DNA from: an uncultured Methylococcaceae bacterium
GTDB taxonomy: Bacteria > Pseudomonadota > Gammaproteobacteria > Methylococcales > Methylomonadaceae
Assembly (NCBI GenBank): GCA_903908165.1
Contig: CAIVQX010000078.1
Location: forward strand, 1 to 64,000
Length of the DNA: 64,000 nucleotides
Direction: 5' to 3'
This document shows positions 1,941 to 2,439 of the stretch, in pieces (the first letter of the stretch is position 1; each line of letters starts with the position of its first letter). Below the pieces are notes generated by a model. That model had not been told where the DNA came from. It searched no databases and worked only from the letters and a program-made list of their open reading frames with translations. Made by a program: the position numbers and the translations under genes.

Positions 1941-2074
1941 GTTATATGAAGTGCATAACGGCTAATGGACAAGTTGTGCCTTCGATAGTTATCTATTTCT
2001 AAGCCTTATTAATGACGAAAGCACTGCGTATCTCTATCGACTTAGAAGGTGCGTCAAACTGTCGCAGGTTTTTA

Positions 2075-2102
2075 TAGACAGCTCAATTTTATTCTATATA
2101 AT
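2075..2102 (+). promoter_or_regulatory. Sigma70-like promoter for candidate small RNA
   Basis: TAGACA-N16-TATAAT (2075-2080, 2097-2102). Confidence 0.5.
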
Positions 2103-2108
2103 TTGTAA

Positions 2109-2302
2109 TCCTTACAAAGGGAACTCAAATTACAGAGTGTTTGATTTTCCTGTAAGTGTGACATGAGAAGGAATTGCGGTCAGTTTTTAACTGATACAAT
2201 AATAAAAATAACGCTACCAAATGAAGCTGTAAAATAAGCCCTACAGTCGTCCGCAAAATAAAAATATAACAGGACGAAGCCCTCTTTATGAGGGCTTTTT
2301 TA
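2109..2302 (+). ncRNA. Candidate structured small RNA, unknown family
   Basis: Predicted start just after the -10; 17-bp interrupted hairpin 2111-2156; TCAGTT/AACTGA 2180-2194; CTGTA/TACAG 2227-2246; TCGTCC/GGACGA 2247-2277; terminator 2278-2302; no plausible same-strand ORF. Confidence 0.5.
2278..2302 (+). terminator. Intrinsic terminator of candidate small RNA
   Basis: AGCCCTCtttatGAGGGCTTTTTT. Confidence 0.75.
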
Positions 2303-2439
2303 TACCTGTTAGAAAACAATGACAGTATCAGAATAGACTTGCATGGTAAGGTATAGTTTTTAGATAAACCTTCTCCTACCCACCGGGTTTATTATGTACC
2401 ACCAAAACTATAATTATAATAACCAGGGGAGTGGAGTCT

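Follow-up and report, generated by a model that had tools for sequence, protein, structure and literature searches.

A multicopy small RNA family behind a RegA-type palindrome in a family of methanotrophs and its possible role in redox control

A small RNA gene upstream of hppA

The DNA under study (the window) is a stretch of 64,000 nucleotides from an uncultured Methylococcaceae bacterium. Near its start, an ORF at 387-722 specifies a small histidine-containing secreted protein, which we take to resemble SmbP-type metal-binding proteins. Between this ORF and hppA lies what is almost certainly a stand-alone small RNA (sRNA) gene with its own promoter, structured body and terminator (Table 1); we refer to its family as class 1. 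A first-pass annotation of the window had proposed an undescribed structured sRNA at this place. This proposal is borne out for an RNA of about 195 nt, which has no Rfam match, shows strong covariation, and keeps its promoter and terminator in multicopy homologues. Likewise, the promoter, with a spacer of 16 nt, and all hairpins listed in that annotation are found where it had placed them. Absent from it were a helix formed by GCG and CGC around the TCAGTT hairpin (P2 in Table 1) and a 17-bp palindrome just upstream of the promoter.

Table 1. Features of the class 1 gene in the window
Feature	Position	Strand	Remarks
Palindromic operator of the RegA/RegR type, putative	2050-2066		TGCGTCAAACTGTCGCA, one mismatch to TGCGACANNNTGTCGCA; centre at about -50
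-35 element TAGACA	2075-2080	+	kept in copies
-10 element TATAAT	2097-2102	+	kept in copies
sRNA gene, class 1 family	2108-2304	+	start inferred from the position of the -10 element
P1, 5' hairpin CTTACA..TGTAAG	2111-2156	+	sequence variable, fold kept
Unpaired purine-rich linker GAGAAGGAA (family consensus GAGGAGGAA)	2165-2173	+	Shine-Dalgarno-like; candidate pairing site for a C-rich partner
P2 (2176-2178/2212-2214) around P2a (2180-2184/2190-2194)	2176-2214	+	covariation
(ARN)5 run AATAATAAAAATAAC	2198-2212	+	candidate site for the distal face of Hfq
P3 hairpin (2226-2230/2243-2247)	2226-2247	+	3 pairs changed on both sides
P4 helix CGTCC/GGACG (2248-2252/2272-2276)	2248-2276	+	4 pairs changed on both sides; surrounds a second A-rich stretch
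Intrinsic terminator AAGCCCTC/GAGGGCTT (2277-2284/2290-2297) and T-tract	2277-2302	+	fold, covariation

The strand from 2105 to 2305 folds with -50.3 kcal/mol (z = -3.45), a value reached by none of 200 dinucleotide shuffles. The hairpins of the 3' two thirds (2180-2194, 2227-2246, 2248-2276 and the terminator at 2277-2302) covary. In a trimmed alignment, five helices comprising 28 pairs are 94.8% paired, and 9 pairs have changed on both sides. When 58 copies are aligned, pairing amounts to 92.7% and 18 of the 28 pairs show changes on both sides (124 cells versus 39 in shuffles), with a covariation score of 0.297 compared with at most 0.086 for controls with slid partners; as this alignment was fitted to the covariance model, its counts lean towards the model, but the earlier MAFFT alignment agrees. 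RNAalifold recovered only the three 3' helices from the full alignment, and P2 and P2a needed the trimmed one. The 5' hairpin changes in sequence and keeps its fold, the first 56 nt having a mean z of -1.84 against shuffles (53 copies). A switch between the TCGTCC helix and an alternative TTGCGG/CCGCAA pairing, which had also been suggested, has to be rejected: the partner is lost in the closest copies, where TTGCGG stands opposite CCGTAA or CCGTAT. Since the aligned copies differ by indels of all lengths and their A-runs are rich in stop codons, a coding function of class 1 is disfavoured.

Copies, distribution and the relation to hppA

A DNA search revealed four further class 1 copies in the same genome, all full or near-full (two in C49, one each in C192 and C189). 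Most genomes of the genus contain homologues, one to four copies are found per genome in relatives from across the family, and thirty copies can be aligned from the operator to the terminator. With a covariance model built from the 3' two thirds of class 1 (R1), strong matches were obtained across the whole genus and also in several further genera of this family. At E < 1e-6 the model detects 59 of 151 family genomes, some of the weaker matches probably representing a second, different RNA family. Of 369 genomes drawn from across the taxonomic class, just two reached the same threshold, namely the own genome and that of a single family member, and class 1 therefore appears confined to one methanotroph family.

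The weak R1 matches (L241, L247, L249, L254, L252 and L245) belong to a different, mostly single-copy RNA family, which this methanotroph family shares with further families of the order. It is characterised by a AGAGGGGGAA linker, A-rich AAYAAYAA stretches and a GCCCGC/GCGGGC terminator; neither the TGCGACA operator nor an Rfam match was found for it. R1 matches of 38-43 bits in other families were accordingly rejected as class 1. In the own genome, a sixth, divergent R1 match of 47.9 bits (G000:C54:823-946, L240) has no recognisable operator and is possibly a decayed copy.

The position next to hppA had led to the idea that the RNA is linked to this gene, and that it could be a cis-acting leader or switch. 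The arrangement itself holds, and it recurs in G015; the link to hppA does not extend beyond it. In the window, the strong terminator is followed by a gap of 126 nt before hppA, and the alternative pairing required for a switch is not conserved. The hppA loci with flanks of three named relatives (L038-L040; among the hppA relatives, the nearest bear the label Methylobacter) contain no detectable class 1 copy, so that a conserved place in the hppA 5' leader is not seen. As the other copies lie elsewhere, in unrelated intergenic regions, a leader function can practically be dismissed.

The palindrome, RegB/RegA and a second RNA class

The palindrome TGCGACANNNTGTCGCA is located just upstream of the -35 element (TAGACA or TGGACA) in nearly all class 1 copies, centred at about -50 and with a nearly fixed spacing to the -10 element. 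It is degenerate in a few copies, such as the one in C192; all 11 copies from other genera keep it with no more than one mismatch. Allowing up to one mismatch, the own genome has four sites, each of them preceding a class 1 copy. With two mismatches the number rises to nine: the four class 1 sites, one at regB, two at members of a second RNA class (class 2, see below) and two apparently chance sites inside coding sequence. We also searched 16 related genomes with TGYGACANNNTGTCGCA at up to one mismatch and obtained 70 sites, which, given the relatedness of the genomes, are not independent events. They precede class 1 (28), class 2 (19), class 3/4 variants (5) and regB (8), i.e. 60 of the 70 precede sRNA classes or regB, and one of the 10 other sites (G032:C214) has a class 1-like start behind it that is cut by the contig end. 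A reversed control pattern gave 0-2 matches per strand and genome.

Two seemingly attractive target genes were discarded. An operator adjacent to mmoX (G025) could have been taken for the promoter of methane monooxygenase, yet it is adjoined by a class 4 sRNA, and the operators near msrA (G006, G029, G008) are followed by a class 3 sRNA instead. Three RegA-type palindromes (G029:C14, L291, sites 1487, 1502 and 1899) lie upstream of genes that appear to encode a Zur/Fur-family protein and a TonB receptor.

The published RegR box, GNGRCRTTNNGNCGC (PMC5506826), is fully matched by GCGACATTTTGTCGC. Three operators of the own genome (TGCGACATTTTGTCGCA) match it completely in one orientation, and the window copy agrees in 14 of 15 positions. 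A single full-length RegA homologue is encoded in the own genome, immediately behind the gene for a RegB-like kinase. When compared with PDB entries, RegA matches 3rqi (E 1.9e-47), and its helix-turn-helix matches both 3rqi and 1umq. In the kinase, the sequences GGASNPI and AHDMGTPLGT resemble the RegB motifs of the quinone site and the H-box. As neither protein reaches its NCBIfam equivalog cut-off (192 of 250 for RegA, 211 of 350 for RegB), their membership in the RegA/RegB family rests on homology and not on NCBI's rule. Upstream of regB, 15 of 30 regions from the genus contain TGTGRCATATTGTCGCA (TGTGACATATTGTCGCA or TGTGGCATATTGTCGCA), mostly at a distance of 110-135 nt from the start. In the own genome, TGTGGCATATTGTCGCA is found 126 nt upstream of regB (L135:4204-4220, G000:C193). 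Such palindromes are as expected of autoregulation, a circumstantial argument.

From these sequence patterns, class 1 transcription would very probably be under RegA control. We propose that this redox response regulator (PrrA/RegR/ActR family) acts at the palindrome 2050-2066 and most likely activates the sigma-70-type promoter just downstream. Against this stand the sub-threshold equivalog scores and the RegA sites of At. ferrooxidans, which show no motif (PMC5506826).

The second class sharing the operator is a short, C-rich RNA of about 90 nt consisting of CAACUCUUGAGAUGCAAACUUCCUCCUCGGAAAUCAGAGUUUUAUAUCCUUCUUUUAAUG and a terminator. It is found behind operators near rsmA and elsewhere, often in tandem behind rsmA/ksgA with copies about 171 bp apart; the own genome has it at G000:C171:22336-22425 and G000:C190:25752-25838 (L140, L141). 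The operator centres 42 and/or 57 nt before the start of the RNA model, which is an activator-like position. The class 2 model (R2) detects 54 of 151 family genomes, and class 2 has no match in Rfam. Its loop, UUCCUCCUC, is anti-Shine-Dalgarno-like. Class 3 (L295, L303, L296 and L297, near msrA) and class 4 (L289 and L301, near phasin/mmoX) are variants of the short C-rich sRNA with the same operator, and the class 4 loop holds ACCUCCU.

Possible function of class 1

From 5' to 3', class 1 has the P1 hairpin, the unpaired G-rich linker, conserved helices with two A-rich (ARN)n stretches between them and a terminator, a layout that fits an Hfq-bound sRNA. Sequence features expected of Hfq-dependent sRNAs are present, namely an intrinsic terminator with a U tail, the ARN motif and an Hfq gene in the genome, and the longest ARN run comes to 5.8 triplets versus 3.1 in shuffled sequences. 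Judged by these features, class 1 is probably a pairing RNA of the Hfq type. Its G-rich linker would most likely be the site of base pairing by which it acts, and class 2, predicted to be RegA-controlled too, would be the likeliest partner, which class 1 may titrate under the same redox signal. We assign a probability of roughly 0.6 to this overall reading, in which class 1 is a trans-acting sRNA family of the Hfq type under RegA control; it is favoured by the complementarity between linker and loop, the Hfq gene and the (ARN)n runs.

Complementarity to the conserved unpaired block of class 1 (GAGGAGGAA; GAGAAGGAA in the window) is found in the class 2 loop UUCCUCCUC or in the UCCUUCUU linker of class 2; in G024, for example, GAGGGGGAA pairs with UUCCCCCUC. 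Duplexes between linker and loop have a mean of -14.3 kcal/mol compared with -4.7 for all windows of the RNA. For duplexes of the whole RNAs the mean z is -1.09, and 29% fall below -1.65. That the block serves as a sponge for the co-regulated C-rich sRNA is, however, only suggested by these data. The advantage of cognate over non-cognate pairs is slight (p about 0.06, phylogeny not corrected for), and a linker rich in purines will find a partner in every pyrimidine-rich loop. Within the own genome, a bulge interrupts the pairing of the window linker with one of the class 2 loops. Moreover, the two classes do not always occur together: class 2 is present where strong class 1 matches are missing (G003, G004, G034 and others), and genus g22 has class 1 but no detected class 2. 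On balance, a sponge function of class 1 is possible, with the odds somewhat against it.

The situation in genus g22 would also suit a direct action on mRNAs by a RegA-controlled sRNA, which would pair with them through conserved unpaired segments such as its linker, the CACCUU at its 5' end or the AUUAAAC that precedes P3; its complementarity to class 2 would then be incidental. Conservation of AUUAA/GAAACUG and of the 5' end speaks for such a role, and we regard it as a serious contender that falls just short of an even chance, given that the region pairing best with class 2 is precisely the conserved unpaired G-rich block and that both classes share one operator. Alternatively, the A-rich (ARN)n linkers could make class 1 a protein decoy that titrates Hfq as CrcZ does in Pseudomonas, with base pairing being secondary. 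Long ARN runs in most copies and the multiplicity of the genes are in keeping with this, as are the A-rich motifs between hairpins that CrcZ (RF01675) shares with class 1. Yet the CrcZ match of one copy, at 18.6 bits, is at chance level against a gathering score of 95 bits, no other feature is common to the two RNAs, and a pure Hfq decoy would need neither a conserved G-rich linker nor conserved helices, which makes this role unlikely. Sequestration of CsrA/RsmA in the manner of RsmY or CsrB might be inferred from GGA motifs in the linker and the 3' part, but is highly improbable. The GGA triplets of the window RNA are situated in the P1 stem, the linker and P4 and none in a hairpin loop, where CsrB/RsmY-type RNAs have several; several copies have only one or two GGA; and the operator differs from the GacA site (consensus TGTAAGN6CTTACA). 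We thus retain the RegA-controlled, Hfq-type pairing sRNA, with the sponge as favoured mechanism, within the limits set by the cognate comparison and the separate occurrence of the two classes.

Each element of this model exists elsewhere. PcrZ of Rhodobacter sphaeroides, according to a later account (PMC8139620, citing Mank et al. 2012), is a PrrA-controlled sRNA induced at low oxygen, with a RegA/PrrA-family consensus site in its promoter, as predicted for class 1. In the same account, it is one sRNA pairing with photosynthesis mRNAs, whereas class 1 is multicopy and occurs in methanotrophs; no sequence match between the two emerged in Rfam. The layout of class 2 and class 1 is the same as that of RoxS and RosA in Bacillus subtilis, where the C-rich RoxS is under the redox response regulator ResD and is titrated by RosA, a stand-alone G-rich sRNA of ~225 nt (PMC8216469). 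RosA is not homologous to class 1, and it is controlled by CcpA, a regulator other than that of its target, whereas class 1, the sponge action of which is predicted, shares its operator with class 2. In Caulobacter, a proteobacterium with Hfq, the sRNA CrfA sponges the sibling family SisA-D (PMC12559287); it differs from class 1 in being a single sponge that responds to carbon starvation, and no shared sequence is shown.

The window has no Rfam match at gathering thresholds, and the class 1 copies reach no family of Rfam 15 at this cut-off; the best, Trp_leader with 25.1 bits versus 41, reflects a resemblance of the terminators. Relaxed scans of several copies gave terminator or A-rich look-alikes below the cut-off, which were rejected, apart from neighbouring tRNA genes. 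Among the first results listed from the open-licence literature, there was no paper on class 1 or class 2 RNAs and no named sRNA from gammaproteobacterial methanotrophs of this group. The class 1 family, its multicopy genes with putative RegA operators and the co-regulated sRNA pair appear to be new.

These results add two structured RNA families that are absent from Rfam. Given the well-known degeneracy of RegA sites in other bacteria (PMC5506826), the conserved palindrome would make a RegA regulon readable from the sequence. The shared, precise operator would tie both RNA families to the redox regulator RegA in bacteria living at oxygen-methane boundaries. A speculative and rather unlikely extension is that RegB/RegA is chiefly an RNA regulator in this methanotroph family: its best palindromes are located almost only before its own operon and two multicopy sRNA classes, which could be antagonistic, a C-rich, anti-Shine-Dalgarno-like class 2 and a G-rich class 1 mimicking Shine-Dalgarno sequences, and the redox state might set translation through this pair of sRNA and decoy. 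With the operator and the RNAs in hand, the model can be tested directly in cultured strains, and the redox response of these methanotrophs may have an RNA layer.
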